Shown in pieces: positions 107-32,653 of a DNA stretch of 64,000 bases. The DNA is from Thiobacillus sp. (GTDB lineage: Bacteria > Pseudomonadota > Gammaproteobacteria > Burkholderiales > Thiobacillaceae). The stretch spans positions 1 through 64,000 of the forward strand of contig JAJPEP010000114.1 in the NCBI GenBank assembly GCA_021166845.1, read 5' to 3'. A program made the position numbers and the translations under genes. The notes beneath the pieces were generated by a model, which ran no database searches, had not been told where the DNA came from, and was given only the letters and a program-made list of their open reading frames with translations. The number at the start of each line of letters is the position of its first letter. The first letter of the stretch is position 1.

Positions 107-206
107 ACTAAATGGCCTCCACGAAACCCGGGGCGGTTCAAAACGAATTTCAGGGGAAGATTTTCAATGGTCAGACCGAGGAACACTCAGGTATGGCACT
201 ACCGAA

Positions 207-851
207 GTGCCAGTACCCCAAGGTTCTGTAGTGCAATGTTTTGCATCCTATTCGGGGCATTTGCAGCATCACGGATGGATAGCGGACCCGGATACGTTCC
301 CCAACGTGCGTCGGGTCCTTCACCACGGGTTTGATTCAAACCTTGAGGGGCTTAAGACTTACCTGTTTGACGAGAAGCACCAAGAAAAAAACTCTCGTGA
401 CTTCGAAGTCGGAGTATCCAATTTATTGTTTATGTTGGGGTTTTCGGTCGACCCATTGATTGGCAAAAAGCTCGAATCCGGTCCAGACATCGTTGCGACG
501 ACCAACAACGGGGACGTGGTCCTAGTCGAGTGCACAATCAACCAAATTAATAAGGATGGGAAGCTTGGCAAACTAGTAGACCGGGCTGAAGTAATCCGGG
601 CTCACCTCGATAACTCCGCCTATGGGCACCTGAGGGTGCTGCCTGTAATTGTCACCGCCAGGCCCAAGGATGCAGTCGGACAGTTTGATGTTGATGCCGC
701 CCGAAGCCAGGGCGTGGTGATAATCACCAAGGACAACCTCATTGACGCATTCGAGCGCTCCGTCGTTTCTCAAGACCCGGACAAGCTGTTCTCCCTTGGG
801 TGGGAGTCCTTGCATCGCGAGGCGAATTCAAAACCCGGTCGGATTGAATAG
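207..851 (+). CDS. Restriction endonuclease-like (PD-(D/E)XK / Mrr-like) protein, possibly 5' truncated
   Basis: GPDIVATTNNGDVVLVECT...K motif resembling a PD-(D/E)XK core; starts just after the IS3 end. Confidence 0.55.
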   Translation: MPVPQGSVVQCFASYSGHLQHHGWIADPDTFPNVRRVLHHGFDSNLEGLKTYLFDEKHQEKNSRDFEVGVSNLLFMLGFSVDPLIGKKLESGPDIVATTNNGDVVLVECTINQINKDGKLGKLVDRAEVIRAHLDNSAYGHLRVLPVIVTARPKDAVGQFDVDAARSQGVVIITKDNLIDAFERSVVSQDPDKLFSLGWESLHREANSKPGRIE

Positions 852-953
852 TCGGCCTCATTGGCTCAAGAGGTAGTCAATTGGCTTCACCAGCTAGTCA
901 GTTGGGTTCGGCTGCTAGTCACACCATTCGGCGCTGGCAATTCCCTCTGCCAG

Positions 954-981
954 ACTTCGCATAATGTATATTATGTTAAAT
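954..981 (+). other. dif: dif-like XerC/XerD recombination site
   Basis: ACTTCGCATAATGTATATTATGTTAAAT; 25/28 identical to E. coli dif (GGTGCGCATAATGTATATTATGTTAAAT), XerD arm and central region identical. Confidence 0.85.
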
Positions 982-1056
982 AGAATATCTGATTCATGAA
1001 ATTCACTGCTGAGGATGCCGCTGGAGTAACTCAAAATTCGGGGAACGCGCGGCCAG

Positions 1057-1537
1057 TCAGCCGCGCCGTGCCGCTTCGATCGCCGCGATGTCGATCTTTT
1101 TCATCTGCATCATCGCCTCGAAAGCGCGCTTGGCTGCGGCGCGATCGGGATCGGCGATTGCGGCAGTGAGCGCGCGCGGCGTGATCTGCCACGACAGACC
1201 CCCACTTGTCCTTGCACCAACCGCAGGCGCTCTCCTGGCCGCCGTTGTCCATGATCGCATTCCACAAGCGGTCGGTTTCGGCTTGGTCGTCAGTCGCAAC
1301 CTGGAATGAAAAAGCCTCGCTGTGCTTGAATGCCGGGCCACCATTGAGGCCGAGACAAGGGATGCCGATCACGGTGAATTCCACCGTCAGAACATCGCCC
1401 AGTTTGCCCGCGGGATAGTCGCCGGGCGCACGATGGACCGTTCCCACCGCGCTGTCCGGGAACGTCTCGGCGTAGAACTTCGCGGCATCCAAGGCGGCGC
1501 CGTCATACCAAAGACAGATCGTGTTCTTGGGGACCAT
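1057..1537 (-). pseudogene. VOC/PhnB-like (3-demethylubiquinone methyltransferase-type) protein with a frameshift
   Basis: N-terminal frame ...ACGWCKDKWG continues in another frame as LSWQITPRALTAAIADPDRAAAKRAFEAMMQMKKIDIAAIEAARRG; extra base in a C5 run near 1199-1203. Confidence 0.8.
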
Positions 1538-1962
1538 ATTCGTTCTCCATTCGTGACCGTTTACGTGAATCCAGCTTAGGCTGACTAGCGGAAGGTCATT
1601 CGTGAGCGTTACCAGAATTTTTTGGGAATATCTCTCGTTTATTCTTAAGAATAGATGTCATCCTATTGACAAAACAAACTTTTTCGGATGAGTTCGGATG
1701 AGGTTGGGCGCTTGATTTCATTTGGCGGCGTTACTCGAATTTCGTGGGGGCGACACCTGGCGCCGGCTGGCTTCTGAAAGTCCCATACCCTTCCCAATGA
1801 ATTACATGGTTGGCCGCTGCCCTTAAAAATCCCCGCGCGCTCAAGGGGGCGCATTCGATGAACTCCGAACACATGGTCTATCCTTTTGAAATGTCGACAC
1901 AATAATCACCCGGTTCCGGGTATGAAACTGGCAGGACCTTGCAGCAAATAACAAGGATCACC

Positions 1963-2148
1963 ATGAAAAAGCCCTTGCCCTCGTTCCTGCACCATCCGCT
2001 CGCCAGGGAAATCACGCTGGCTATCGTCATCAAGCTGTTGGTGATCGTGGCAATTTTCTATGCGTTTTTCGATGGTCGGGCGGTGCATCCCGACGCCGAC
2101 GCCGTGGCCGAGCGGCTGGCCAACCCGCAACAACACGCCAGGCAATAA
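1963..2148 (+). CDS. cydP: Cytochrome oxidase putative small subunit CydP
   Basis: Short single-TM protein MKKPLPSFLHHPLAREITLAIVIKLLVIVAIFYAFF directly upstream of cydA. Confidence 0.75.
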   Translation: MKKPLPSFLHHPLAREITLAIVIKLLVIVAIFYAFFDGRAVHPDADAVAERLANPQQHARQ

Positions 2149-2164
2149 CCCATTAGGAGCACCC

Positions 2165-3757
2165 ATGTTGACCGAAGAACTCGTTGACCTGTCCCGGCTG
2201 CAATTCGCCGTCACCGCGCTGTATCACTTTTTGTTCGTGCCGCTGACGCTGGGCCTGGCATTCATCCTGGTGATCATGGAGCTGACCTATGTCATCACCG
2301 ACCGCCCCGTCTACAAGGACATGGTGCGCTTCTGGGGCAAGCTGTTCGGCATCAATTTCGCGCTCGGGGTGACCACCGGAATCACCATGGAATTCCAGTT
2401 CGGCACCAACTGGGCGTACTACTCGCACTATGTCGGCGACATATTCGGCGCGCCGCTGGCGATCGAGGGGCTGATGGCCTTCTTCCTCGAATCGACTTTC
2501 ATCGGCCTGTTTTTCTTCGGCTGGGACCGCCTCAACAAATGGCAACACTTCATGGTCACGGTGCTGATGGCAGTGGGCTCCAATCTGTCCGCGCTGTGGA
2601 TCCTGATTGCCAATGGCTGGATGCAGAATCCGCTCGGTGCGGAGTTTTCCTATGCCACCATGCGTATGGAAATGACCGATTTCTGGGCCATCGTGTTCAA
2701 TCCGGTGGCGCAGGCCAAGTTCGTACATACGGTGTCGGCGGGCTATGTCACCGCCTCGCTGTTCGTGCTCGGCATTTCCAGCTACTACCTGCTGAAAGGG
2801 CGAGACCTCGATTTCGCGCGGCGCTCGTTCCGCATCGCCGCAGCCTTCGGCTTTGCCTCGGCGCTGTCGGTCATCGTGCTGGGCGACGAATCCGGCTACA
2901 CCATGGGTGAATCGCAGCAAGCCAAGATGGCGGCGATCGAGGCGATGTGGGAAACCGAGCCCGCCCCCGCCGGCTTCACCGTGTTCGCCCTCCCCGACGA
3001 GGCGGCCCAGCGCAACGACTACGCGCTGCATATCCCCTACGTGCTCGGCCTGATCGGCACGCGCACGCTGACCGAGACCATGCCCGGCATCAAGGAGATC
3101 AAGGCAAGGAACCGAGAACGCATCGAGAACGGCATCCAGGCGGTGGTCGCGCTGGAGCAATTACGCAGAAAACGCGACGACAGCGTCGCGCATGCGCGAT
3201 TCGAAGCCAGCAAGACCAACCTCGGCTTTGGCCTGCTTCTGAAGAAATACACGGTCGATGTTTCGCAGGCCACGCCGCAAATGATCCAGCAGGCGGTTGA
3301 CGACACCATCCCGCGCATCGCCCCGCTGTTCTGGAGCTTCCGCATCATGGTGGCGCTGGGTTTCCTGTTCCTCGTGCTGTTCGGCTTCGCATTGTTCTAT
3401 TCGGTGAAGGGCAATTTCACCGAGAAGAAATGGCTGCTGCGCTGGGCGCTGTGGTTCATGCCGATGCCGTGGATCGCCGCCGAACTCGGCTGGATCGTCG
3501 CCGAATACGGCCGTCAGCCATGGTCGATCTACGGCGTGCTGCCCACCCATATCTCGGTGTCGAACATCTCGGTCGGCAATGTTTACGGCTCGCTCGCCGG
3601 CTTCATCGGCTTCTACACCGTGCTGCTGTTCGTCGAGATGTATCTGATGACGAAATACGCGCGCCAGGGCCCGGCCAGCCTCGGCAGCGGCAAATACCAT
3701 GGCGAACAGACCGCTGGCGTCGTACTGCCAGCGGGCGCACCGGTGCACAAAATCTAA
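2165..3757 (+). CDS. cydA: Cytochrome bd ubiquinol oxidase subunit I
   Basis: MLTEELVDLSRLQFAVTALYHFLFVPLTLGL..., FQFGTNWAYYSHYVGDIFGAPLAIEGLMAFFLEST. Confidence 0.97.
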   Translation: MLTEELVDLSRLQFAVTALYHFLFVPLTLGLAFILVIMELTYVITDRPVYKDMVRFWGKLFGINFALGVTTGITMEFQFGTNWAYYSHYVGDIFGAPLAIEGLMAFFLESTFIGLFFFGWDRLNKWQHFMVTVLMAVGSNLSALWILIANGWMQNPLGAEFSYATMRMEMTDFWAIVFNPVAQAKFVHTVSAGYVTASLFVLGISSYYLLKGRDLDFARRSFRIAAAFGFASALSVIVLGDESGYTMGESQQAKMAAIEAMWETEPAPAGFTVFALPDEAAQRNDYALHIPYVLGLIGTRTLTETMPGIKEIKARNRERIENGIQAVVALEQLRRKRDDSVAHARFEASKTNLGFGLLLKKYTVDVSQATPQMIQQAVDDTIPRIAPLFWSFRIMVALGFLFLVLFGFALFYSVKGNFTEKKWLLRWALWFMPMPWIAAELGWIVAEYGRQPWSIYGVLPTHISVSNISVGNVYGSLAGFIGFYTVLLFVEMYLMTKYARQGPASLGSGKYHGEQTAGVVLPAGAPVHKI

Positions 3758-3766
3758 GGAGCGGAC

Positions 3767-4903
3767 ATGGACTACGAAACCCTGAAACTCGTCTGGTGGC
3801 TGCTTGTCGGCGTACTGTTGATCGGCTTCGCCATCATGGATGGCCACGACATGGGCATGGGCGTGCTGCTGCCCTTCGTCGCCAGGAACGATCTCGAGCG
3901 CCGCGCCATGATCAATACCGTCGCCCCGCACTGGGACGGCAACCAGGTGTGGTTCATCACCGCCGGCGGCGCGATCTTCGCCGCCTGGCCGCTGGTCTAC
4001 GCCACCGCCTTCTCGGGCTTCTACTGGGCGATGATGGCCGCATTGTGGGCCCTGTTCTTCCGCCCGGTCGGCTTCGATTACCGTTCCAAGATCAAGCACC
4101 CGACCTGGCGCAGCACCTGGGACTGGGGCCTCTTCATCGGCGGGGCGGTGCCGCCGATCATTTTCGGGGTCGCCTTCGGCAATCTGCTGCTGGGCGTGCC
4201 CTTCCACTTCGACGACCTGATGATGTCGACCTACACCGGCAGCTTCTGGGCCCTGCTCAACCCCTTCGCCCTGCTCGCCGGCGTGGTGAGCCTCGGCATG
4301 ATCACCTTTCAGGGCGCGAACTACCTGATGATGCGCACCGAAGGCGCCATCTACCGCCGCGCCCGCACCGCCAGCCTGATCTTCGGTGCGCTCACCTTCG
4401 TCACCTTTGCCCTGGCGGGCGTGTGGGTGGCGACCGGCATCGACGGTTACGTCGTCACCAGCGCCCTTGCCCCCAATGCCCCTTCCGATCCGCTCGCCAA
4501 AACGGTCGAGGTGCAGGCGGGTGCCTGGATGCACAACTACACGCAATATGCCTGGGCGATGTGGGTGCCGATCGCGGCCTTCGTCGCGCTCGCCGCGGGC
4601 ATCCTGTTCTCCCGCCTGCATCAGGCCGGCGCCGCGTTCTGGTCGTCGTCGGTCGCCTGTGCCGGCATCATCGGCACCGCCGGCGTATCGATGTTCCCCT
4701 TCATCATGCCGTCGTCGACCGACCCGCGTTCCAGCCTCACCGTGTACGACGCCGTGTCGTCGCATCTCACGCTCGGCCTGATGCTCGGCGCCACCGTCAT
4801 CTTCATGCCGCTGATCATTTTTTACACCTCATGGGCCTACAAGGTGATGTGGGGCAAGGTGACGACGGAATACATCGCTGCCAACGACAAATCGGTTTAT
4901 TGA
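3767..4903 (+). CDS. cydB: Cytochrome bd ubiquinol oxidase subunit II
   Basis: MDYETLKLVWWLLVGVLLIGFAIMDGHDMGMGVLLPFV. Confidence 0.97.
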   Translation: MDYETLKLVWWLLVGVLLIGFAIMDGHDMGMGVLLPFVARNDLERRAMINTVAPHWDGNQVWFITAGGAIFAAWPLVYATAFSGFYWAMMAALWALFFRPVGFDYRSKIKHPTWRSTWDWGLFIGGAVPPIIFGVAFGNLLLGVPFHFDDLMMSTYTGSFWALLNPFALLAGVVSLGMITFQGANYLMMRTEGAIYRRARTASLIFGALTFVTFALAGVWVATGIDGYVVTSALAPNAPSDPLAKTVEVQAGAWMHNYTQYAWAMWVPIAAFVALAAGILFSRLHQAGAAFWSSSVACAGIIGTAGVSMFPFIMPSSTDPRSSLTVYDAVSSHLTLGLMLGATVIFMPLIIFYTSWAYKVMWGKVTTEYIAANDKSVY

Positions 4904-4914
4904 AAGGAATCGCC

Positions 4915-5055
4915 ATGTGGTATTTCGCCTGGATGCTCGGAGTCACCATGGCCGTGCTGCTCGCCTCGATCAACGCGATGATGTGCGATGCTCAGGAATA
5001 CTCGCTCGACGAAGTGCGCAACAAGGCCGCGGACGACACCACGCGGCATGGCTGA
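4915..5055 (+). CDS. cydX: Cytochrome bd-I oxidase small subunit CydX
   Basis: MWYFAWMLGVTMAVLLASINAMMCDAQEY right after cydB. Confidence 0.93.
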   Translation: MWYFAWMLGVTMAVLLASINAMMCDAQEYSLDEVRNKAADDTTRHG

Positions 5056-5067
5056 TCGATTGTTCGA

Positions 5068-5388
5068 ATGGCAGTACCCCCGCCGCAAGGCCCGGCGCGC
5101 ATGATGCGCGGGCTCGACACCGGCTGGGCGCGCGGCATCTCGCTGCTTGTCGCACTGACGCTGATGATGCTCGTCACCCTGCTGCCGCGCGGACTGACCA
5201 CTGAAGACGGCAGCCCGATCAGCCACGGCGTGCTCGTGCTCATCATGTGGGGCATGTCAGCGGGCTTCGTGCACGGGGTCGGTTTCGTCCCCCGCAACCG
5301 CATCCCGCGCGTGCTGCTCGGCCCCCTGGTCGCGTGGCTGTGGATGGCCGTGGGGCTGGCTTTTTATGTTGCGTATTTTTTGAGGTGA
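5068..5388 (+). CDS. ybgE: Cyd operon protein YbgE family
   Basis: Three-TM protein after cydX; HGVLVLIMWGMSAGFVHGVGFVPRNRIPRVLLGP. Confidence 0.8.
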   Translation: MAVPPPQGPARMMRGLDTGWARGISLLVALTLMMLVTLLPRGLTTEDGSPISHGVLVLIMWGMSAGFVHGVGFVPRNRIPRVLLGPLVAWLWMAVGLAFYVAYFLR

Positions 5389-5526
5389 TGCCGCCAACCC
5401 TGAGTCGCTTCACCCGTTCGCTGCGCATTCTTAATCTTAAAGCGACCACCCATCATTGGAGGCAAGCGGACGCCACAATTACTGTGAACTTCTACAATGG
5501 GTGCATAGGCTTCAGTCGGAGGCGAT

Positions 5527-5928
5527 ATGCGTTATCTCAGCTTTGCATTGCTGCTGCTGCAGTTGAGTTTTACTGCAGCAGCCGACAACAAAACCGAACT
5601 GGAAAAGCACTACAGCGCCTTGAACATGCTCAATCAGCAGCAGCAGGCGATCTATCAGCAATTCCAGATGGTGCAGGAATTGCGCCGAAACGGCAGCGCG
5701 CCATTGCTGTACGGCACGCCCATGCGCCCGCAGCTGCTCGGGCAGATTGCGAATTACGACGAAGTGGTCGCAGCGCAGAAAAGCGCAGTCTTGCGCGGGG
5801 AATACTTGTATCAGCAGGCCGACCAGCTTCTGGCTAAATACAACGAAATCGAAGAAATGAAAAAACCGCTGCAACTGAGGATCTACGGTCTTTCGCTGAA
5901 GGCCGAGCCTGAACCTGTGCCGGAATAA
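5527..5928 (+). CDS. Secreted/periplasmic hypothetical protein
   Basis: Signal peptide MRYLSFALLLLQLSFTAAA, Q-rich helical body. Confidence 0.65.
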   Translation: MRYLSFALLLLQLSFTAAADNKTELEKHYSALNMLNQQQQAIYQQFQMVQELRRNGSAPLLYGTPMRPQLLGQIANYDEVVAAQKSAVLRGEYLYQQADQLLAKYNEIEEMKKPLQLRIYGLSLKAEPEPVPE

Positions 5929-6086
5929 ATGTTGAACACCCAGGTTAATTACCGTCTCTAACTGATTGTTTTTAATGCCGCCACCGGCTTGCCGCGCAGC
6001 TCGAAAAGGCGCCGGGCGCGGCGCCAGCGCCGCCCTAACTCCAACTGGGCCACGCGAGGGCTGATCTCCACCCTCTTGGGCTGGCC

Positions 6087-6596
6087 TCAGATAAACAGGC
6101 AGATATCCGTTTCGCCCGCGAATTCAAAGAAGGTCGCCGCGCCGCCGTATTCGATGTTGTCGATGAAGTCGGACTGCTCAAAGCCGAACAATTCGATGGT
6201 CATCTGGCAGGCGATCATCTTGACGTCGGCTTCCTGGCAGAGTTCTCGCAAGTCCGGAATCGAAGCGACGCCGGTGTTGCGGATCGTCTGCTTCATCAGC
6301 GAGGTGGCGAGGTTTTCGTACCCCGGCACCAGGGACTGCACCGCATTCGGGATGTTCCAGCTGATTCCCTTGAACCACTTTGGGCCGAACGGCATTTTCA
6401 TGGGCATGCCGGGGTTGCCGAGCGGGCTGACCTTGAGTCCTGACAAGTCCTTTTTCAGCAGTTGCAGGCCATAGAAGGTGAAGAATATCTGCACCTCGTA
6501 TCCCAGTGCGGCGGCGGTGGACGCCAGGATGAAGGGCGGATAGGCCCAGTCCAGCGTGCCCTTGGTGGCGATGAGCGCCATTTTTTTGGTTTCCAT
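6087..6596 (-). CDS. dsrE2: DsrE/DsrF-like (DsrE2-type) sulfur-relay family protein
   Basis: KMALIATKGTLDWAYPPFILASTAAALGYEVQIFFTFYGLQLL; downstream of tusA. Confidence 0.85.
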   Translation of the reverse strand: METKKMALIATKGTLDWAYPPFILASTAAALGYEVQIFFTFYGLQLLKKDLSGLKVSPLGNPGMPMKMPFGPKWFKGISWNIPNAVQSLVPGYENLATSLMKQTIRNTGVASIPDLRELCQEADVKMIACQMTIELFGFEQSDFIDNIEYGGAATFFEFAGETDICLFI

Positions 6597-6627
6597 GATA
6601 TTTCTCCTTTTCCTGGTTGGATACGGC

Positions 6628-6855
6628 TCAGTGCTTGCGCATCAGGAAGACGAACTCACCGCCGTTTTCGGCGGTGGACAGGAGTTCGTTGCCGGTTTGC
6701 TTGGCAAACGCCTGCATGTCCTTGACCGAGCCCGGGTCGGTTGAGCTCACCTTCAATATCTGGCCGCTTTGCAGTTCGCCCAGCGATTTTTTGGTGCGCA
6801 AAATAGGCAGCGGACAGTTGAGGCCGCGCGCGTCGAGTTCTTTGTCGAAGTTCAT
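6628..6855 (-). CDS. tusA: Sulfurtransferase TusA family
   Basis: LDARGLNCPLPILRTKKSLGELQSGQILKV with conserved CPxP. Confidence 0.95.
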   Translation of the reverse strand: MNFDKELDARGLNCPLPILRTKKSLGELQSGQILKVSSTDPGSVKDMQAFAKQTGNELLSTAENGGEFVFLMRKH

Positions 6856-6929
6856 GCTGTTCTCCTGAAAAATCGGCTGATTTTCTTGCGCGCCCAGCCG
6901 TGAATTGCGCGTCTGTCACAGGCCGGCGA

Positions 6930-7502
6930 TCAGTCCGCCCATGCGCGGCCGGCGAACATGCCGTCGACCGGGGTATGGAAAAGATGATTGGCATAGTTGC
7001 TCAGGGTCTTCACGGCAATCGCCAGCACAATTTCCAGGATTTGGCGTTCGCTGTAACCCGCGGCGAGAAAAGCGCTCACGTCAGCCTTGTCGGGCAGTCC
7101 GCGCTTCGCCACCATGGTGCGGGTGAAGTCGTGCAGGGCGGCCAGCCTGGCATCCGGGATCGGCCGGCCATCGCGGATGGCGTCGGTGACGGCTGCAGGA
7201 ACCCCGGACATCCTGTCGGCGATGAAACTGTGCGCGGCGACGCAGTAGGTGCAGCCCTTTTCGCGGCTGACCGCCAGCAGCACCACCTCCTGCTCGGCCG
7301 GGGTAAAGCCGGACAAGGCCCGGAAGCGCTCGTAGCCGTGCACATAGGTATCGAGCAGGCCGGGCGAGTTGGCCATCACGCCATACATGTTGGGCACGAA
7401 ACCGAAACCGGCCTGCGCCGCGCGCATCCGGTCGGCGGCGATGGTGTCGGCATTGGCTTCGGTCAGGGGTGGGAGGGACAGCTTATATTCCGATTGCATC
7501 AT
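6930..7502 (-). CDS. AhpD-like / carboxymuconolactone decarboxylase-family peroxidase-related protein
   Basis: EVVLLAVSREKGCTYCVAAHSFIA (ExxxxxxxxxxCxxCxxxH). Confidence 0.88.
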   Translation of the reverse strand: MMQSEYKLSLPPLTEANADTIAADRMRAAQAGFGFVPNMYGVMANSPGLLDTYVHGYERFRALSGFTPAEQEVVLLAVSREKGCTYCVAAHSFIADRMSGVPAAVTDAIRDGRPIPDARLAALHDFTRTMVAKRGLPDKADVSAFLAAGYSERQILEIVLAIAVKTLSNYANHLFHTPVDGMFAGRAWAD

Positions 7503-7516
7503 GACTCCTTGGTTAG

Positions 7517-7532
7517 TGGACCGTATGGTCCA
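7517..7532. promoter_or_regulatory. Putative TetR operator upstream of the AhpD-like gene
   Basis: TGGACCgtatGGTCCA palindrome; related 16-mer TGGACTGATTGGTTCA at 8168-8183 upstream of the tetR start. Confidence 0.55.
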
Positions 7533-7562
7533 TTATTGGTCGCAAAAAAAAAACACGAATCC

Positions 7563-8156
7563 TTACTGCAAAGCCTTCAAAGTCAGTCCGATGATACCGC
7601 GCAGGGTGTCCTCCCCTGCCTCGGCTTTGCTCATGGTCTTCAGGCCACTCATGCTGCTGACCAGATAACTGGCCAGCATCACGGCATCGCGCGCCGGCGG
7701 GATATCGCCTTCTTGCTGGGCGCGTTCAACCGCAGCCAGCAATACGCCATGAAAGCGGTCAAGGCCATGCGACACCGCCTCGGCAATCCGTGGATTGCGC
7801 CGCGCGAATTCGTTGGCGGTGTTCAGGACCAGGCATCCGCGCGCCTCGCACACCCCGCGCGCCTCATCCAGCACGCTTTCCAGAAACTGCCGGATAAAAC
7901 CCAGGCCGCTGGGCGAGGCCTGCAAGGCATCGCGCAGGGCCCCGATCATCTCATCGCCGTAACGCGTCATGCAGCGCTCGAATAGGGCCTGCTTGCCGCC
8001 AAACGCCTGGTACAGGCTGCTCTTGGATATCTGCATGGCGTCGAGCAGATCCTGCATCGAGGTGTTTTCATAGCCATTGCGCCAGAAAACCTGCATCGCC
8101 GCATCGAGCGCGGCGTCAGGATCGAATTCGAGCGGCCGACCGGGTGATGGCTTCAT
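7563..8156 (-). CDS. TetR family transcriptional regulator
   Basis: FDPDAALDAAMQVFWRNGYENTSMQDLLDAMQISKSSLYQAFGGKQALF. Confidence 0.93.
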   Translation of the reverse strand: MKPSPGRPLEFDPDAALDAAMQVFWRNGYENTSMQDLLDAMQISKSSLYQAFGGKQALFERCMTRYGDEMIGALRDALQASPSGLGFIRQFLESVLDEARGVCEARGCLVLNTANEFARRNPRIAEAVSHGLDRFHGVLLAAVERAQQEGDIPPARDAVMLASYLVSSMSGLKTMSKAEAGEDTLRGIIGLTLKALQ

Positions 8157-8202
8157 GATCCTGTTTATGGACTGATTGGTTCATAATGTCAAGAGCAAGG
8201 TC

Positions 8203-8403
8203 TCAACCCCTTTCCAGCCGTTGGGCGGATTTCACGAACTTCACCCGCGCCACATCCGCCTCGCCGTAGCGACGAATGCCGCCGTAGGGTTTGTCCGGCT
8301 CGGCCAGCAAGCCGCGGCGCTGGTAGAAGCGGATGGTTTCCACGTTCACCCCGGCGGCCTTGGCAAAGGCGCCAATCGTCAGGCTCTCAAGATCATTCTT
8401 CAT
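8203..8403 (-). pseudogene. merR: C-terminally truncated mercury regulator MerR (DNA-binding half only)
   Basis: [63 protein letters not shown] then ERG*; Hg-binding region missing. Confidence 0.88.
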
Positions 8404-8408
8404 TCCGC

Positions 8409-8439
8409 TTGACTCCGTACATGAGTACGGAACTAAGGT
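8409..8439 (+). promoter_or_regulatory. MerR-type mer operator/promoter
   Basis: TTGACT-19 bp-TAAGGT with dyad CCGTAC atgA GTACGG (ttgactccgtacatgagtacggaactaaggt). Confidence 0.85.
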
Positions 8440-8473
8440 TAGGTTATCCATTCCGGATTTGAAAGGACACAGC

Positions 8474-10269
<1,796 letters not shown>

Positions 10270-10304
10270 GCTGAGCGTACCGATACAGCAGGAGCCGATT
10301 CAGC

Positions 10305-10994
10305 ATGGAAGGCCATCACACCGCAACCAGGAAAATGCGACTGCTCGGGGCGTTGCTGGTCCTGATCGCCCTGGTGCTGGTCTATCGCCATCTGGACGCC
10401 AGCGGCCTGCTGGAACGGCTGATGGACGGCCAGTGGCTGCGCCAGCAAACCCTGGCGCTGGGCGTCTGGGGGCCGCTCCTGATTGTCGGCCTGATGGCGC
10501 TGGCCATCGTCCTCAACCCCATCCCGAGCGCGCCCATTGCCCTGGTCTCGGGCGCCGTGTTCGGCCATGCCTGGGGCACGCTGTACGTCGTCCTCGGCGC
10601 GGAAATCGGCGCCCTGACCGCCTTCGCAATCGCCCGCGTATTGGGTCACGACCTGTTGCGCCGGCTGTTCGGGGAGCGCGTCGCACTGGGCTGGCTGGGC
10701 TCGCAAAATGCCCTGACCTGGATGGTGTTCGTCTCCCGCCTGCTGCCTTTCGTCTCCTTCGACCTGGTGAGCTACGGCGCCGGGCTGACCCACTTGAAGG
10801 CATGGCGCTTCGCGCTGGCGACCCTGCTGGGCCTGATTCCGGCGAGCTTTCTGCTCGCCCACTTCGGCGGCGAGTTGGCCGCGGCGGACATGGGCAATGC
10901 GATGGTCGCATTGCTGCTGATCGGGCTGCTGGTCGTGGTTCCGCTTGTGTTCAAGCTCGTTCGCGCCCATATAAACCGCGATCGGGAAGCCTGA
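10305..10994 (+). CDS. TVP38/TMEM64 family (DedA-like) membrane protein
   Basis: NPIPSAPIALVSGAVFGHAWGTLYVVLGAEIGALTAFAIAR; VFVSRLLPFVSFDLVSYGAGLT. Confidence 0.88.
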   Translation: MEGHHTATRKMRLLGALLVLIALVLVYRHLDASGLLERLMDGQWLRQQTLALGVWGPLLIVGLMALAIVLNPIPSAPIALVSGAVFGHAWGTLYVVLGAEIGALTAFAIARVLGHDLLRRLFGERVALGWLGSQNALTWMVFVSRLLPFVSFDLVSYGAGLTHLKAWRFALATLLGLIPASFLLAHFGGELAAADMGNAMVALLLIGLLVVVPLVFKLVRAHINRDREA

Positions 10995-11015
10995 CGGGGA
11001 ACGGGGGAGACCTTC

Positions 11016-12566
11016 TCAGGCAGTGCAGGCCCCCAGGTTGCCGCTGATGGCGCGCCAGCGGTGGCCGTTGCGTGCAAGCAGGGCGTCGGCCTCTGCCGGG
11101 CCGTCGGTTCCGGCGGCATAGCCGGGCAGCGCACCTTCAGTCTGCGCCGCCCAGGCTTCCTCGATGGGTGTGATCAATCGCCATTGCGCTTCCACGCCGT
11201 CGCGCCGGGTGAACAGGGTGGCGTCGCCGCGCATGGCGTCCAGCAGCAGCACGGCATAAGCCGAAGGCGGATGCTCGCCGAAGGCGTTGCGGTAGCAGAA
11301 ATCCATCGAAACCGGCACCGCGCGGCGCGCCGTGCCAGGCTGCTTGGCGCCGAAGGCGAGGCTGATGCCTTCGTCGGGCTGAATGCGCAGGGCGATGACG
11401 TTGGATTGCACCGCCTCCTCGTGCGGGAACAGGCTCAAGGGCGGGTGATGGAAGTGCACCGCGATTTCGGTGACCTGGCGCGAGAGGCGTTTTCCCGTGC
11501 GCAGGTAGAACGGCACTCCGGCCCAGCGCCAGTTGTCGATGAAGAATTCCAGCGCGGCGTAGGTCTCGGTGCGGGATTCCGCGGGCACCCCCGCCTCCCC
11601 CAGCCAGCCCGGCACGCTTTCACCGTTGCTCGTCCCGGCGGTGTACTGGGCGCGCACGGTGCGGCGCGCCACGTCCTCCGGCGTCATGGGGCGGATCGAG
11701 CGCCACACCTCGATCTTCTTGTCACGCACGGCGTCGGCGTCGAAGGCAACCGGCGCTTCCATGGCGGTGAGCGCCAGCAGCTGCATCAGATGGTTGGCCA
11801 CCATGTCGCGCAAGGCGCCGGATTCCTCGTAGTAGCCGGCGCGGTGCCCCACGCCCAGCGGCTCGGCGGCGGTGATCTCGACATGGCTCACGTGATTGCG
11901 GTTCCACACCGGCTCGAACAGGGCGTTGCCGAAGCGGAAGAAGAGGATGTTCTGCACCGTCTCCTTGCCCAGGTAGTGGTCGATGCGATAGACCTGCTTC
12001 TCGTCGAAGGCTTCGGCCACAATCTTGTTCAACGCCTGCGCCGAGGCCAGGTCGCGGCCGAAGGGCTTTTCAATGACGACGCGCGCCCAGCCACGGTCTT
12101 CCCGGTTCAGCCCCGCGCCGGCCAGCCCGCGGATGATGGCCGGCGCGGCGGAAGGCGCCGTGGCCAGGTAATACAGGCGGTTGCGGGCATCGGGCAGCGT
12201 GCCCAGCAAGGCCGCCAGCCGCGTGTGGGTGTCGGCATCGGCGAAGTCGCCCGGAAGATAGGTGATGCGCGGCGCGAAGACCTGCCACTCGTCTTCGCTG
12301 AACTGCTGAATCTCGGCGGAATGGGCCACGCCTTCCTTGAGATGCGCGCGAAAGGCATCGTCGCTCATGGCCTGGCGGCCGATGCCGACGACCCGGAACG
12401 GGCCGGCCATGCAGCCCTCGCAGGCAAGGTGGAACAGCGCCGGCATCAGCTTGCGCCGGGTCAGGTCACCGCTGGCGCCGAAGATTACGATGACGCATGG
12501 TTCGGCCTGCGGCAGCGTCGCTACAGGCAGGTCAATGTGGGTGGTGAGGTCGATTTGGGGGGACAT
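11016..12566 (-). CDS. zwf: Glucose-6-phosphate 1-dehydrogenase
   Basis: [40 protein letters not shown]. Confidence 0.95.
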
Positions 12567-12757
12567 GGCTGTTTCCTGTTTACCGGGTTCCATATGGCCG
12601 CCGCTGCCGCTTCCATGAACGACAAAGCCTGGATTCCCAATGTCGAAATTTGTCTATATTCAACAAACCCGGTGGCAGGCAGCGATCGCAGGAAGCGCCA
12701 TGAGGGTACGTTTCAAACTCCAAGGGAGATTCAATCTTCAAGATAGGAGGCTTTGCC

Positions 12758-13330
12758 ATGAAATATCCCAGAAATACTCGATCCGCTCGCCTGATTTTTC
12801 CCTTTGCCGCAATGCTTGCCCCGGCGCTCCTGTGGCATGCCGGCCCGCTTGCCGCGCAGGGAATGTCCGGCAAGACTCCCGCCGCGGTCAAGGCAATGCA
12901 GGGTTCGGCCATGAAGACCATGGAGAAATTCATGGCCATGCCGGCGGACAAGCAAAAGGCCTACGTGGCGCAGAAGCAGAAGGAATCCATGGATCGCGGC
13001 GAGGCGGCCTTCAAGGACACCAGACTCGGCACCAACGGCTTTTCCTGCGCGACCTGCCATCCCGGCGGCAAGACAACGGGGGGCAGCATACCCATGGGCA
13101 TGATGCAAATGCCGATTCCAAGCCTTCAGGGCGTCGCGGCGACCTTTCCCAAATTCAAGATCGGCAACGATGCCGTGATTACCCTTGCCGACATGAACAA
13201 CAACTGCATCGTCATGTTCCTCAACGGCAAGCCCTTGAAGACGGACAGCCAGAAGGCGCGCGACCTTGCCTTTTTCGTGACCGGTTTCAGCCAGGGTGTA
13301 CCCTACTCCCCCGGAAAAGAGGCCGAGTAG
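12758..13330 (+). CDS. Periplasmic c-type cytochrome
   Basis: Signal peptide plus one CATCH heme motif. Confidence 0.8.
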   Translation: MKYPRNTRSARLIFPFAAMLAPALLWHAGPLAAQGMSGKTPAAVKAMQGSAMKTMEKFMAMPADKQKAYVAQKQKESMDRGEAAFKDTRLGTNGFSCATCHPGGKTTGGSIPMGMMQMPIPSLQGVAATFPKFKIGNDAVITLADMNNNCIVMFLNGKPLKTDSQKARDLAFFVTGFSQGVPYSPGKEAE

Positions 13331-13341
13331 GCGGGGGTTCC

Positions 13342-13980
13342 ATGGCTGCCAGGGCTGTGCGGTCTTGGGCCGTTGCGCTATCGCTCCTGTGGATGTCGGG
13401 GGTGGCGCTTGTCGCGAAGGCCGAAAGCCCTGGCGCAAGCCAGGGTGCGGCGCTGTGGCAGAAATTCGGCTGTGCGAATTGCCATCGTCTGGGCGGCGCG
13501 GGAGAAACGGTCGGCCCCGAGCTCGACCAGGTCACGCAGCGGCGGCCCCGGGACTGGATTTTCCGCTGGCTGGGCGACCCGGCAAGCATGAAGCCCGGAA
13601 CTCTGATGCCGAAACTTCCCTGGCAGGCCGGCGAGCGCGAAGCGCTTATCGTTTATCTGCGACAGTTTGCCGTCCCGGTCGACGGCCCCGCGATCGTCAT
13701 GGAAAAAGGCCGCACGCCCGAAGCCGGAGAAGCGCTGGTCAAGGCATACGGCTGCCGGGCGTGCCACCAGGTGGGAACGGCGGCGGGCCGCCCGCTCTAT
13801 CCCGACCTGACCATCGTCAGGCTGCGCCGCACGCCGGCATGGGAAAAGAGCTGGCTGGCCAATCCGGACGCGATTAAACCCGGAACCTTCATGCCCGACT
13901 TTCATTTCAGCGAAGGCGAGATCGATGCCATTGCCGCCTACCTGTTCCGGCCCCCCGTAAAAGGCGGCAAGACGCGATGA
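13342..13980 (+). CDS. Diheme c-type cytochrome
   Basis: Signal peptide; two heme motifs CANCH and CRACH; KPGTLMP/KPGTFMP repeats. Confidence 0.85.
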   Translation: MAARAVRSWAVALSLLWMSGVALVAKAESPGASQGAALWQKFGCANCHRLGGAGETVGPELDQVTQRRPRDWIFRWLGDPASMKPGTLMPKLPWQAGEREALIVYLRQFAVPVDGPAIVMEKGRTPEAGEALVKAYGCRACHQVGTAAGRPLYPDLTIVRLRRTPAWEKSWLANPDAIKPGTFMPDFHFSEGEIDAIAAYLFRPPVKGGKTR

Positions 13981-16409
13981 ATCGCAATAATTTCCTTGCC
14001 GGGAACACGGTGGCATTCGGCCACCCCGGCATCCCTCTCAGCTGGACCCCGAGCTCGAAAGGCGCGGTCGGCACAGCGTATTCCCGGGCCAGCAGGCTCT
14101 GGTTTACGCTCTCCCGCGGGGTGCTCAACGAAGTCTACTACCCGACCATCGACCGGCCGCAAATCCGCGATCTGCAATTCCTGTTCACCGACGGCGAGCA
14201 CTTTTTTCACGAGGAACGGCGGGACCTGCACAGCGAAATTCGCTGTCTCGACGGCGACTCCCTGGGCTATTCGGTGCGAAGCGAGGACCCCGAAGGCCGC
14301 TACAGCCTCTACAAGGAAATCATCGCCGACCCCACCAGCCCATGCCTGCTGATTCATACCCGTATCGAGGCCGACGCCGCCTGGCTCAAACGCTTGCGCG
14401 TCTATGCCTTCCTCGCTCCCCGGCTCGAGTGCGGGGGTGCGGGCAATTCCGCGTGGCGGGGCCAGGTCGCGGGAAAGAACATTCTGATCGCCGGCAAGCA
14501 AAGGACCTACCTCGCTTTGGCCGTCGACCGGGGTTTTGCACGGACTTCCTGCGGCTTTTCGGGCATCAGCGACGGCTGGCAGGATCTCAACGACAACTTC
14601 AACCTTGACTGGGCGTTCGACCAGGCCGAAAACGGCAATGTCGCCGTCATCGGGGAAATCGATCTTTCCCAGGGCAATGCGTTCACCCTGGGAATGGCGT
14701 TCGGCGACGGGCCGCATGCCGCCATCACCAGCCTGGTGCAGTCGCTCAGCATTCCCTTCGCCAGCCACCGCGCGCGCTTTGTCGAGCAATGGCACAGCAT
14801 CTGTTGCGAGATTCCAGACCTCGGCGCCGTGTCGCTGGATGGCGGCGCGCTCTATCGCATCAGCCACAACCTGCTTCTCGCGCACGAGGACAAGACCTTC
14901 TCCGGCGCGATCATCGCCTCGGCCAGCATTCCGTGGGGCGAAGCCCGGCGGGACGAAGACCTGGGGGGCTACCATCTGGTCTGGACGCGCGACATGGTTC
15001 ATAGCGCCACCGCCCTGCTCGCCTGCCGCGACATCGCCACGCCGCGCCGCACGCTGGTCTACCTCGGCTGCTCGCAACATTCCGACGGGGGATTTCCCCA
15101 GAACTTCTGGCTGGACGGCACCCCGCTGCATACGGCGATTCAACTCGACCAGGTGGCGTTTCCGATCATCCTGGCCTGGCGCCTCTGGCAGCTCGATGGG
15201 CTGGGTGACTTCGATCCCTATCCCATGGTCCAACGCGGCGCCGCCTTCCTGATCCGGCAAGGCCCCATGACCCAGCAGGAGCGATGGGAGGAGGCAAGCG
15301 GCTATTCGCCGTCGACCCTGGCCGTCACCATTGCCGCCCTTGTCTGCGCCGCCGATTTTGCACGGTCGCGCGGGGCGCCGGACGCGGCGCGGTTTCTGGA
15401 AGAGTACGCGGACTTCATCGAATCCCGTCTCGAAGCGTGGACGGTGACCACCGAAAGCACACTCGTTCCCGGCATTCCCCGCCATTACATCCGCATCCAC
15501 CCCACCACCATCGAAGACCATTCCCCGGATGAGAACCCCAATGCCGCATCGCTCGTGGTGGCGAACCGGCCACCCGGCGGTCCCTGGCTGTTTCCCGCCA
15601 AGGACGTGGTCGATGCGGGCTTCCTCGAACTTGTCCGTTACGGCATCCGCAAGCCAGGGGATGCCCTGATCGAGGACTCGCTGCAGGTGGTCGACGCCGC
15701 GCTCAAGGTCGAAACGCCGTTGGGCCCGTGCTGGCGGCGATACAACCACGACGGCTACGGCAACCGCCCCGATGGCGGCCCGTATCAAACCTGGGGGAAA
15801 GGCCGCGCCTGGCCCCTGCTCACGGGCGAGCGCGCCCACTATGAATTCGCCGCGGGGCGGCCGGTAAGCGGCTACGTCAGCGCGATGGAGAAATTCGCAT
15901 ATCGCAGCGGCATGCTGCCCGAACAGGTTTGGGACGAAGACCGCCTCGAGCTCGGCATCCGTTCCGGGTATCCGTCGGGGTCCGCCATGCCGCTGATGTG
16001 GGCGCACGCCGAATACATCAAACTGCTCCGGACCATCGCCGACGGGCAGGTGTTCGATTTCATTCCGCTTGTTGCGGAACGCTACTGGAATGGTCGTGGC
16101 GCCAAGGATCTGGAGGTATGGAAACCGGTGCGCCAGGTGCGCACCGTAAACCGGGGGCAGCGATTGCGCATCATGTCCCCTGCCGCCTTCCGGCTGCGCT
16201 GGACGCCGGACGAATGGCAAACGGTCTACGACATCGAAGCCACCCGCTCCGGGGTCGGCATCAGCTTCGTGGATATTCCCATCGGCCTGGCGCAGCAGTC
16301 CCCCATCCGGTTCACGTTCTATTGGCTGGAGACCATGAGCTATCCATTTTTCCACAGTGAACGGGGGCAGTGGGAAGGGCGCGACTTCACGGTGCATGTT
16401 CTTGCATAG
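13977..16409 (+). CDS. Glycoside hydrolase family 15 (glucoamylase-like)
   Basis: GVLNEVYYPTIDRPQIRDLQFL, IPWGEARRDEDLGGYHLVWTRDMVHSATALLA. Confidence 0.92.
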   Translation: MNRNNFLAGNTVAFGHPGIPLSWTPSSKGAVGTAYSRASRLWFTLSRGVLNEVYYPTIDRPQIRDLQFLFTDGEHFFHEERRDLHSEIRCLDGDSLGYSVRSEDPEGRYSLYKEIIADPTSPCLLIHTRIEADAAWLKRLRVYAFLAPRLECGGAGNSAWRGQVAGKNILIAGKQRTYLALAVDRGFARTSCGFSGISDGWQDLNDNFNLDWAFDQAENGNVAVIGEIDLSQGNAFTLGMAFGDGPHAAITSLVQSLSIPFASHRARFVEQWHSICCEIPDLGAVSLDGGALYRISHNLLLAHEDKTFSGAIIASASIPWGEARRDEDLGGYHLVWTRDMVHSATALLACRDIATPRRTLVYLGCSQHSDGGFPQNFWLDGTPLHTAIQLDQVAFPIILAWRLWQLDGLGDFDPYPMVQRGAAFLIRQGPMTQQERWEEASGYSPSTLAVTIAALVCAADFARSRGAPDAARFLEEYADFIESRLEAWTVTTESTLVPGIPRHYIRIHPTTIEDHSPDENPNAASLVVANRPPGGPWLFPAKDVVDAGFLELVRYGIRKPGDALIEDSLQVVDAALKVETPLGPCWRRYNHDGYGNRPDGGPYQTWGKGRAWPLLTGERAHYEFAAGRPVSGYVSAMEKFAYRSGMLPEQVWDEDRLELGIRSGYPSGSAMPLMWAHAEYIKLLRTIADGQVFDFIPLVAERYWNGRGAKDLEVWKPVRQVRTVNRGQRLRIMSPAAFRLRWTPDEWQTVYDIEATRSGVGISFVDIPIGLAQQSPIRFTFYWLETMSYPFFHSERGQWEGRDFTVHVLA

Positions 16410-16500
16410 CCGCTTTGGCCAAACCAACACCCGAATTTCGTACCGCCGCAACCGCCACGGCTTCGGCCCGGGGGCGGGCCTCCTGCAACAGCAAGCGTAG

Positions 16501-16611
16501 ACCCAGATTGTCCATTGGCGCGTAGGGTGTACTCTGTGCGCCGATTAACGCCCGAAGGTGCACGGAGTGCACCCTACTCAAAGCATCTCGCCCTAATGAA
16601 CAATCTGGGGT
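16501..16611. repeat. MITE-like inverted-repeat element
   Basis: Outer inverted repeat cccagattgtccatt / aatgaacaatctggg and inner inverted repeat gtagggtgtactctgtgcgcc / ggtgcacggagtgcaccctac around a short loop. Confidence 0.7.
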
Positions 16612-16822
16612 AGATGCTGTTGAATTGAAATGAATTCCAATGTGCGTGGCGGATTGCCCACTCCCGAGGAGAAGGCCTTGGAAAGCGGGGCCTGCGATTG
16701 CCTTACGCGTCTGCCCGTTCCGGGACGCAAAACCCGCCAGCCCCGATCCAGGCGAGGACTTCGTTCGGCATACGGTCGCGGTTGTCGCGCGTCACCTCCT
16801 CAGGATGGTTCCCGCGGGTGGG

Positions 16823-17446
16823 TTAGTACTTGTCCGGCCACTCGCACACCGCGCGCAGCACGCACTCGGGGCAGCGCGGCTTGCGCGCGATGCAGGTCTC
16901 GCGTCCATGCAGGATCATGGCGTTGCCGAACGCAGTCCATTTACCCTTCGCCACCTGACGCATGAGCGCCTCCTCCACCTGCTCGGGGTCGTTGGAATGG
17001 ACGAGCCCCAGTCGATTGCTCACCCGCAGCACGTGCGTATCCACCGCAATCGCCGGCACGCCGAAGGCGTTGCCCAGCACCATGTTGGCGGTCTTGCGCC
17101 CCACTCCGGGCAGCGTCGTGAGCGCCTCCAGGGTGTGCGGGATCTCGCCGTGAAAATCCGCCACCAGTTTTTGGCAGCAGGCGATGACCGAGCGGGCCTT
17201 GTTCCTGTAAAAGCCGGTGGAGCGTATCTCCGCCTCCAGCACGGCAGGGTCGGCCGCGGCGTAGTCCTCGGCTGTCCTGTACTTTTCGAAAAGGGACGCG
17301 GTGACTTCGTTGACCCGCGCATCGGTGCACTGGGCGGAGAGGATGACGGCGATCAGGAGTTCCAGGGGATTCCCGTAATGCAGGGCGAGCCTGGGCTCGG
17401 GGTATTTCTTGAGCAGCAGCGTAGCGATCTTCCCGGCATCGGCCAT
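16823..17446 (-). CDS. nth: Endonuclease III
   Basis: LPGVGRKTANMVLGNAFGVPAIAVDTHVLRVSNRLG; C-terminal 4Fe-4S cysteines. Confidence 0.96.
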   Translation of the reverse strand: MADAGKIATLLLKKYPEPRLALHYGNPLELLIAVILSAQCTDARVNEVTASLFEKYRTAEDYAAADPAVLEAEIRSTGFYRNKARSVIACCQKLVADFHGEIPHTLEALTTLPGVGRKTANMVLGNAFGVPAIAVDTHVLRVSNRLGLVHSNDPEQVEEALMRQVAKGKWTAFGNAMILHGRETCIARKPRCPECVLRAVCEWPDKY

Positions 17447-17705
17447 GACTTACTCCCGACGAGCGATTCAAGCATAGTGCACGAAACCCGTCCGGCATGT
17501 GGCGGCACTCATAACATGCCTTTCATTCCGAGTGGATATGGTCCAGTGAGAGCGACGCGTCATCAAAGGGTTGTCGGGCGCCAGATAATTCCTGGCGATG
17601 GGGGCGATGCACCCGGTATCACCTCTTCCATGCCCCCTCCCCGCTTCGTCAAAATGCGACCCACCGGGGCCGGCCAGCGCATGGACGGCGTAAGGAGGTG
17701 GGGCG

Positions 17706-18500
17706 TCATGTGACGCGTCCGTCACTGATCAATACGGACGTCATGGATATAGCGCTGAGCACGACGTCATCCATAAATTCGACCCTGTCCGTTCCACGCT
17801 GTACACCGAGAATGTAGATCAGAGGCAAGTAGTGTTCTACCGTCGGTACAGCCAGGGCCGCATGCGCACTTAACCCCCCGTAATTAATCAGTGCCTGATG
17901 ATCGCGGGACAACAATTTCTGTTTCACTGCATCGTTGAATTCAACCGCCCACGCGGGCGCCACGGGATCGTCATAGCTAAAAGCGCTTAAGTTATGCACG
18001 ATATTTCCACTACCAAGAATCAGAAAACCTTCGTCACGCAGCGGAGAAAGTTTTCTGGCAAGGTCGTAGTGGAATTGAATGGGTTGACGGGTATCCAAAC
18101 TCAGCTGGACAACCGGAACATCCGCGGCTGGGTACATGGGTCTCAAGACGCCCCATGCGCCATGGTCCAAACCACGCTCGGAATCCAGCACCACTTCGTG
18201 GCCATGCAAGAGTGCACTGACACGGCGGACGAGTTCCGGGTCGCCGTGGGCAGGATACTCAACCGCAAGCAGCTCTTTCGGAAAACCATGGAAATCGTGA
18301 ATGGTTTCCGGCTGTTGAGATGACGTCACACGAACGCCGGGCGCTTCCCAGTGCGCGGAAATGCACAATACCGCTTTCGGTCCGGGCAGCTGCTTCCCAA
18401 GACGCTCCCAGCTCGCGTGAAAGGGGTTGCGTTCGATTGCGTTCATGGGATTCCCGTGCCCCAGGAAGACAGCAGGCATTCTTGTCGATTCAATGTTCAT
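17706..18500 (-). CDS. DODA-type extradiol aromatic ring-opening dioxygenase (YgiD-like)
   Basis: PAVFLGHGNPMNAIERN, CISAHWEAPGVRVTSSQQPETIHDFHGFP. Confidence 0.93.
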   Translation of the reverse strand: MNIESTRMPAVFLGHGNPMNAIERNPFHASWERLGKQLPGPKAVLCISAHWEAPGVRVTSSQQPETIHDFHGFPKELLAVEYPAHGDPELVRRVSALLHGHEVVLDSERGLDHGAWGVLRPMYPAADVPVVQLSLDTRQPIQFHYDLARKLSPLRDEGFLILGSGNIVHNLSAFSYDDPVAPAWAVEFNDAVKQKLLSRDHQALINYGGLSAHAALAVPTVEHYLPLIYILGVQRGTDRVEFMDDVVLSAISMTSVLISDGRVT

Positions 18501-18566
18501 GGATTTTGTTGCCTCGCAATATTAATGAAAGCCAACTCGCGCCTGCTGTTCGACGATGAAATGGGA

Positions 18567-18586
18567 CCGCCCCGATGTCGGGGCGG
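18567..18586. terminator. Putative terminator hairpin between pirin and dioxygenase genes
   Basis: CCGCCCCGA-tg-TCGGGGCGG perfect stem; weak T tract. Confidence 0.4.
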
Positions 18587-18597
18587 AAGCGGGTCTC

Positions 18598-19296
18598 TCA
18601 GGGCAGATCGAACAGCAGTACCTCGGCATGTCCAAGGCCTTCGAGGTGAACATGGTCGACGTCTTCCAGCGTCGCGCCGTCTCCGCCGCCCAGGGGCGTG
18701 CCGTTGACAGCGACCTGGCCGCGCGCCACGTGCACGTAGGCGCGGCGACCGGCGGCGAGCGGATGCTCGACCGACTCGCCCGCTTCGAGCAGGGTGCCGT
18801 ACAGCAGGCCGTCCTGATGCGCGATCAGGGAGCCGTCGCGCCCGTCCGGCGAAACCAGCAGCACCAGCCGGCCGCGCCGATCCGCGAGTGGAAAGTGCTT
18901 CTGCTCGTAGCCCGGCTGCACGCCGGTGCGGTTGGGTACCAGCCAGATCTGCAGGAAATGGACCGGCTCCGTCGGTGACGGGTTGTACTCGCTGTGCCGA
19001 ACGCCGGTTCCGGCACTCATGCGCTGGATATCACCCGGGCGGATGACCGAACCGTTGCCCATGCTGTCCTTGTGCTCCAGCGCGCCATCGAGCACGTAGC
19101 TGACGATTTCCATGTCCTGGTGGCCGTGGGTGCCGAAGCCCTGACCGGGCATCACGGCGTCGTCGTTGATCACCCGCAGGTTGGACACCCCCATGTGCTC
19201 CGGGTCGTAGTAGTTCGCGAAGGAAAACGTGTGGTAGCTGTCGAGCCAGCCATGGTTGGCGTGGCCGCGCGCGTTCGAAGGTCTGAGGGTTGTCAT
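18598..19296 (-). CDS. Pirin family protein
   Basis: [67 protein letters not shown]. Confidence 0.96.
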
Positions 19297-19395
19297 GGCG
19301 GATCTCCTTGGAATAATCGGCCACGAAGGCCTGGTCGGCCGGCGCTGCCCAAAGGCGTGGAAGAAGACGCTGGCGGCGAGCGTGGGCTCTTGCGC

Positions 19396-19995
19396 TCAGG
19401 CAAACGCTGCCTCGAGATCCGCCTCGGCTTGGGCAAAACCCTTCTCGGCCGCTTCCGGTCCCATGGCCAAGCCCTCAGCATAGATAAACTGAAGGTCGGT
19501 CATGCCCAGAAAGCCCAGCACGTTCTTCAGATATGGCACCTGGGCATCCTTGTCCGTCCCACGGTACAGGCCACCGCGCGCCAGCGCTATGTAGACCTTC
19601 TTGCCTTTGAGCAGGCCCTCCGGACCCGTCTCGGTATATTGAAACGTCACACCCACGCGAGCAATCGCGTCGATCCAGTTCTTGAGTTGCACGGACACGC
19701 CAAAGTTGTACATCGGCACCCCCAGCACGATGGTGTCGTGCGCCTGGATCTCGGCGATCAGCGCGTCGTCCAGTGCCGCGCGGGCAGCCTGCTCGGGTGT
19801 GCGTTGGTCGGCGGGGGTGAACAACGCGCCCAGCGCCGCTTCATCCAGCATGGGGTGGGGCGTTACGGCCAAATCACGGAGCGTGACCTTGGCACACTGG
19901 TTGGCGGCCTTCAAACGGTCCACGATAGTGTTGGCTACACGGGTGGAGTTGGCCCCTTCGCTACGGGCGCTGGCGTTGATTTGCAGGATGTTCAT
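19396..19995 (-). CDS. azoR: FMN-dependent NADH-azoreductase
   Basis: [25 protein letters not shown]...; [52 protein letters not shown]. Confidence 0.9.
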
Positions 19996-20078
19996 TTCGG
20001 TGCCTCAGAGGGAATGGTTGCGATGGGTGTACTGTATCCGTCACCAATCGCGCTGAGAATCCCTAAAAGTGGCTATCA

Positions 20079-20098
20079 TTGTTCCTTATATGGAACAA
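20079..20098. promoter_or_regulatory. Perfect inverted repeat overlapping the lysR start codon
   Basis: TTGTTCC-ttatat-GGAACAA between divergent azoR and lysR. Confidence 0.5.
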
Positions 20099-20998
20099 TA
20101 CAAGACAGGCATCGACCCAAACGATCTGCTCATCTTTGCCTATGTGGCCGAGCTGGGGAGTTTCAGCCGGGCGGCTGAAAAATTAGGATTGCCCAAGTCC
20201 ACCGTCTCGCGGCGATTGGCCGGGCTGGAACAGCGCCTGGGCGAACGCCTTTTATTGCGCACCACCAGGCGCCAAACGATGACCGAGTTCGGACTGCTAT
20301 TGCTGGAGCACGCCCGTCAGGTGGCGGCCGAAGTGAATGCAGTGGCCGCCTTGAGCGAACATCGCCAGTCGGCGCCAAGCGGGCGCTTGCGCGTGTCCAT
20401 GCCCAGCGACTTTGCCAACCTGCTGCTCGCGGATGCGCTTGCCGCGTTTGCGGCAACGCACCGAGGCGTCGCGTTGGAACTCGATCTGTCGCCGCGGCGC
20501 GTGGATTTGCTGGGTGAAGGATTCGATGTGGCAATTCGCGTCGGTGATTTACCCGATGACGCCATGCTGGCCGCACGACGCTTGAGCGAATTCTCAACGG
20601 GCCTGTATGCGTCGGCCGATTACCTGGCTGAGTTCGGGCATCCGGCAAGCCCCGAAGACCTGGTCCGTCACAACGCCGTGGGACTTCTTGGCCAAAATGG
20701 TGAGCCCGTGAAGTGGACCCTCAGCCGCGGCGAGATCCGATGGGAGGGGCTTCCACCTGCGCGCATTACCGCCAATTCGCCGGAACTGCTGATCCACATG
20801 GCACGAGCCGGCGCGGGCATTGCCGCCGTCCCCGATGCCTTTGCGCTCGCCGATGTCGGCAAAGGCCTATTGCACCGCGTGCTGCCCGGCTGGAGTCTCC
20901 CCAGGGAAATGGTGTCGGCGGTTTTCCCCGGACGAAAACTCATGCCGGTGAAAACACGTGCATTTCTCGATATGCTGCAGGCGGCCCTGGGTGCGTGA
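20090..20998 (+). CDS. LysR family transcriptional regulator
   Basis: DLLIFAYVAELGSFSRAAEKLGLPKSTVSRRLAGLEQRLGERLLLRTTRR. Confidence 0.95.
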   Translation: MEQYKTGIDPNDLLIFAYVAELGSFSRAAEKLGLPKSTVSRRLAGLEQRLGERLLLRTTRRQTMTEFGLLLLEHARQVAAEVNAVAALSEHRQSAPSGRLRVSMPSDFANLLLADALAAFAATHRGVALELDLSPRRVDLLGEGFDVAIRVGDLPDDAMLAARRLSEFSTGLYASADYLAEFGHPASPEDLVRHNAVGLLGQNGEPVKWTLSRGEIRWEGLPPARITANSPELLIHMARAGAGIAAVPDAFALADVGKGLLHRVLPGWSLPREMVSAVFPGRKLMPVKTRAFLDMLQAALGA

Positions 20999-21035
20999 TG
21001 CCGATTCCCAGCGATTCCGCCCGAATTGCGTGACT

Positions 21036-32649: not shown

Positions 32650-32653
32650 GACG

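Follow-up and report, generated by a model that had tools for sequence, protein, structure and literature searches.

The closest described counterpart of the site analysed here is the dif of Thiobacillus denitrificans, the same 28-mer, reported at position 1,430,783 of a 2,909,809-b chromosome (Carnoy and Roten 2009, PMC2731167). Several kinds of mobile element are known to exploit such sites. Integrative elements that use the Xer recombinases (IMEX) include the TLCphi type (PMC5357621), which is the match for XafT-encoding units described below. ISAjo2-type elements are known 'dif hunters' that insert 5 bp from the XerC arm; in the IS1202/ISAjo2 dif hunters, a TnsB-like transposase of 441-457 aa is carried in the element (PMC10132070). 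We compare these systems with a locus in the window, that is, the whole 64,000-nucleotide stretch of Thiobacillus DNA that was analysed. The genome of the window is designated G000, and the other G-numbers are congener genomes.

A complete 28-bp dif, ACTTCGCATAATGTATATTATGTTAAAT, lies on the plus strand at positions 954-981 and consists of an 11-bp XerC arm, a 6-bp centre and an 11-bp XerD arm (Table 1). It had been called near-canonical in the first-pass annotation, and rightly so: 25 of its 28 positions are identical to E. coli dif, the XerD arm and centre entirely so, and the three mismatches (positions 1, 2 and 4) all fall in the outer XerC arm. The next independent candidate in the window differs from E. 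coli dif at 11 positions, and none with three or fewer mismatches arose in 100 shuffles of the window. In the draft assembly (3.2 Mb in 115 contigs, 86% complete, 6% contamination), searched as a whole as the annotation had proposed, the window site is the sole match with at most three mismatches. No other dif-like site was found in the 73.8-kb contig or in the 86% complete draft. At least 118 GTDB contigs, mostly from gamma- and betaproteobacteria, contain a single copy of the identical 28-mer; Thiobacillus thioparus is among the carriers in the matches listed. In G011 the 28-mer is found at 1,430,772, and we infer that G011 is the T. denitrificans strain of the published dif, taken as ATCC 25259. 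The published site and that of the window share the 28-mer, the genus and the orientation to the right replichore, whereas the adjoining genes and mobile elements differ.

We conclude, with a probability of about 0.96, that positions 954-981 are the primary chromosomal dif of this Thiobacillus genome. The site is an ordinary one, described already and not novel in itself; it anchors the terminus of a draft genome, and little more. Its neighbourhood outweighs it: in Thiobacillus, elements that exploit Xer share dif as a landing site, and so, probably, do transposons that insert at a near-fixed distance.

Table 1. Features of the window around dif.
Feature	Position	Strand	Remark
3' end of IS3-family insertion sequence, reaching the contig end	1..140	+	Plasmid matches partly annotated as IS3-family transposase
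5'-truncated gene, restriction-endonuclease-like protein	141..851	+	Corresponds to residues 231-454 in a homologue of 476 aa
Probable transposon end (type A)	872..923	-	Also found in G024, G006, G026 and G019, 30-33 bp (measured to a terminus of the base-923 type) from an XerC arm
XerC-binding arm of dif (ACTTCGCATAA)	954..964	+	Arm shared with the published T. denitrificans dif
Central region of dif (TGTATA)	965..970	+	Same as the E. coli centre
XerD-binding arm of dif (TTATGTTAAAT)	971..981	+	Same as the E. coli XerD arm
Right replichore, KOPS directed at dif	982..64000	.	11 on the minus and 2 on the plus strand, counted over all 73.8 kb of the contig

Immediately to the left of dif, the window carries a block of three TAGTCA repeats, 21 bp apart (starting at 874, 895 and 916), whose terminus is TCACA at 923 or CCA at 926. 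The three-repeat block finishes with CTAGTCACA followed by CCA, and its minus-strand reading starts with TGTGACTAGCAGCC; 30 bp separate this end from the XerC arm. About 95 bp of the left flank beside dif are common to G024 and G006, and the homology ceases at the end of dif. When 56 genomes of the genus were searched with a degenerate pattern, this end, named type A, turned up at five places, each some 30-34 bp away from the XerC arm of a dif or dif junction; a sixth match was an internal repeat and was left out of the five. The exact pattern was encountered only in G000 and G026 in an order-wide scan of 399 genomes, and type A gave no match on plasmids. The left end of the element was not found in G006, G024, G026 or G019.

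An end of another family, type B (TGTAAGAACCAGAGCAACCTGC...), is found in G011, G002, G012 and G022 at a distance of 33-36 bp from an XerC arm, and its matches on plasmids were at chance level only. The G011 element is complete: it measures 1,947 bp, has inverted TGT...ACA ends with CCCGC on both sides (a 5-bp duplication), carries repeats at its dif-proximal end and contains a helix-turn-helix gene; no transposase was recognised by eye among its gene calls. Counting both families, transposon-like ends are placed 30-36 bp from the XerC arm in nine genomes, that of the window included. Types A and B are probably transposon ends, a single end being seen for the type A of the window.

These ends resemble the IS1202/ISAjo2 elements (PMC10132070) by their location on the XerC side of dif in a fixed orientation and, for the complete G011 copy, by the TGT...ACA ends and the 5-bp duplication. 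They differ by a spacing of 30-36 bp instead of the 5 bp that marks membership of that group, by the presence of a cargo gene, by the lack of a visible transposase and by the three repeats at the dif-proximal end. Likeness to Tn7/Tn5053-like elements is also found for type B in G011 (TGT...ACA ends, 5-bp duplication and repeated sites predicted to be bound), and the window shows one end, with three repeats, of an element that continues beyond the contig. The TniQ/TnsABC machinery is not located beside the ends: TniQ was found neither in G000 nor next to any type A or B end, and the TniQ of G024 is 11.8 kb off, on the opposite side of dif.

The truncated gene next to the type A end is probably cargo of the element that ends there. 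Its product matches PHROG 17577 (restriction endonuclease; E=5e-4), and no Pfam family was found for it. The first half of the gene was not found elsewhere in G000, and plasmids yielded no relatives of the nuclease. Several plasmid matches to the first 140 bases of the window end at base 140. This gene beside dif is cut by the IS3-family element, not by Xer recombination, and the link that had been drawn between dif or IMEX and the truncated genes nearby is not borne out. A multi-copy IS is likely to be the reason why the contig ends at this place.

On balance, we lean towards the view that non-autonomous cargo transposons hunt dif in Thiobacillus, with two end families that insert in the same orientation at a distance of 30-36 bp from an XerC arm and carry defence-like genes to the terminus, and that the type A end of the window is one of them. 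If true, such a spacing is undescribed for ISAjo2-type dif hunters, and whether dif-bound Xer proteins can guide a DDE transposase over some 30 bp becomes a testable question. A tentative alternative is that positions 872-923 form a conserved dif-associated block, for example sites for accessory proteins, which was inherited or moved together with dif. Such a block would fit the constant proximity to a dif-type XerC arm and the single type A end ever seen, and the CCA that follows TCACA in all copies may belong to it; yet only five of the 56 genomes of the genus have it, homology breaks off on its far side, and type B shows the same layout with another sequence, in G011 as a complete element with both ends and a CCCGC duplication. 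The transposon-like end beside dif is the sole lead worth following.

In the congeners, dif is a hot spot on its XerC side for XafT-encoding IMEX units of 1.5-1.9 kb and for a conjugative island. Units of 1,503-1,855 bp are found left of dif in G011, G002 (T. denitrificans RG) and G034; at their left junction, the XerC arm and centre are kept and the XerD arm is foreign. G011 has two XafT-encoding units in tandem (L183, G011:C1:1410773-1430772), with starts at 3573 and 1718 bp to the left of dif and with inner junctions that have foreign XerD arms. One small protein is encoded near dif in G011, G002, G034 and G017, and the G011 copy matches NF040522, the VC1465-family Xer activation factor, at 4.8e-42. 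G011, G002 and G034 display the features of IMEX, namely an attP with a good XerC arm and centre, a divergent XerD arm, and a VC1465/XafT-family protein. The congener elements share with the TLCphi and gonococcal GGI types of IMEX the canonical XerC arm and centre, the divergent XerD arm, the VC1465/XafT-family protein and the conjugative island at dif, but the 1.5-1.9 kb units have no recognised replication gene. Each integration would swap the XerC arm of the working dif, since the XerD arm of the chromosome is used again. In a gammaproteobacterial MAG (L132), an XerC arm with a foreign XerD arm, ACTTCGCATAATGTATAACATTAGCTGA, was observed 1516 b left of its dif.

The conjugative island is associated with the XerC arm TATGCACATAA, present in ten congeners. 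Where enough left sequence is available, long blocks of about 84-98% identity, with indels, reach this arm, and the right flanks are mostly without a match. In G029 (contig C16; L279, L223), genes for TraH, TraI_2 and a TraD/TraG-type coupling protein are encountered within about 38 kb on the left of dif, and on this account the region abutting dif is a conjugative island; no left end was found for it in 90 kb. G026 and G019 show ACTTCGCATAA-TGTATA-TTAGCAAGTCC, which we read, from separate contigs, as the putative left junction of the TATGCACATAA island, since G026 has the TATGCACATAA site on another contig. G029 also has, 40 kb to the left of dif, a gene for a 313-aa tyrosine recombinase that resembles XerC/D.

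The first-pass annotation had also proposed that the site of the window is a target or product of IMEX. This holds for the related species; for the window itself, there is no second XerC-arm junction in the 73.8-kb contig, of which the side where one is expected spans only 953 bases, and tblastn gave no xafT match in the window. XafT-type genes are dispensable for some IMEX. The window site might be the right junction of a Xer-integrated element situated to its left, and would then be dif and IMEX product at once, given that a hybrid of the XerC arm of the element and the chromosomal XerD arm still works as dif. Such hybrids are common in the congeners (the XafT units of G011, G002 and G034, and the TATGCACATAA island in ten species), and the right ends of the IMEX in G011 and G034 bear the same ACTTCGCATAA arm as the window. 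We nevertheless regard a junction of this kind as unlikely: besides the lack of a partner junction or xafT in the bases to the left, the known left-end sequence of the XafT-IMEX is absent from G000, and the flank at 872-926 is a transposon-like end and not an IMEX end.

The position of dif relative to the terminus was examined in the complete single-contig chromosomes of G011 and G024 (dnaA at about 1.2 kb), where it is located at 49% and 47% of the chromosome, respectively. In G011, the KOPS motif GGGNAGGG occurs 11 times on the plus strand and never on the minus strand in the 40 kb left of dif, compared to none and eight in the 40 kb to the right; the flip takes place exactly at dif, and the GC skew of the sampled stretches changes there from positive to negative. 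In G024 the tendency was the same, with lower counts (6:2 to the left of dif, 1:5 to the right). The contig of the window shows the right side of dif only, the left replichore being off the contig; 11 of its 13 KOPS point toward dif (the probability of at least 11 of 13 by chance is 0.011), and its GC skew is weak (-0.012), with a sign that agrees with KOPS. Skewed octamers other than KOPS were uninformative in the window (17 versus 15). XerD of G000 scores above the equivalog cut-off, and XerC was recognised by a C-terminal fragment with a score below the full-length cut-off. Two XerC-like genes are located on separate contigs (G000:C36 and G000:C99; L037, L040), a pair that may reflect a paralogue or the 6% contamination.

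The claim that the window contains the dimer-resolution point is thus upheld by the uniqueness of the site in the genome, its identity with the published T. denitrificans dif, the mid-chromosome position in two complete congeners, the KOPS polarity and the presence of XerC and XerD. With the left arm off the contig and a draft that is 86% complete, no better dif appeared elsewhere, and the KOPS and skew switch was located at dif in G011. That the site is a chance match or of plasmid type (pdif), for which nothing speaks except the draft state of the assembly, is extremely improbable in view of the empty shuffles, the KOPS polarity and a contig that bears chromosomal genes such as cydAB and shares synteny with the dif regions of G034 and G033. 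By analogy with the established E. coli mechanism, XerC is predicted to bind 954-964 and XerD 971-981; FtsK, steered by KOPS aimed at dif from both arms, would pair two dif copies at the septum and activate XerD, and XerC strand exchange around TGTATA would follow, so that a chromosome dimer would be converted into monomers.

A few minor features were recorded near dif. An inverted repeat, CTGGCA-N8-TGCCAG, occupies positions 934-953 of the window, immediately left of dif. Several Thiobacillus dif sites have similar motifs, GGCA...TTGCC, in their flanks, roughly at -28 to -16; as a general feature of dif, this motif was set aside, as it was not evident by eye in most other flanks. To the right of dif, at 1057-1537 on the minus strand, a gene of the PhnB/3-dmu-9_3-mt family is apparently split over two reading frames, by a true frameshift or an assembly error. 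Finally, a record labelled Rhizobium sp. (L120, JAIBEL010000073.1) has the same dif flank as Thiobacillus G005, and its name looks wrong.
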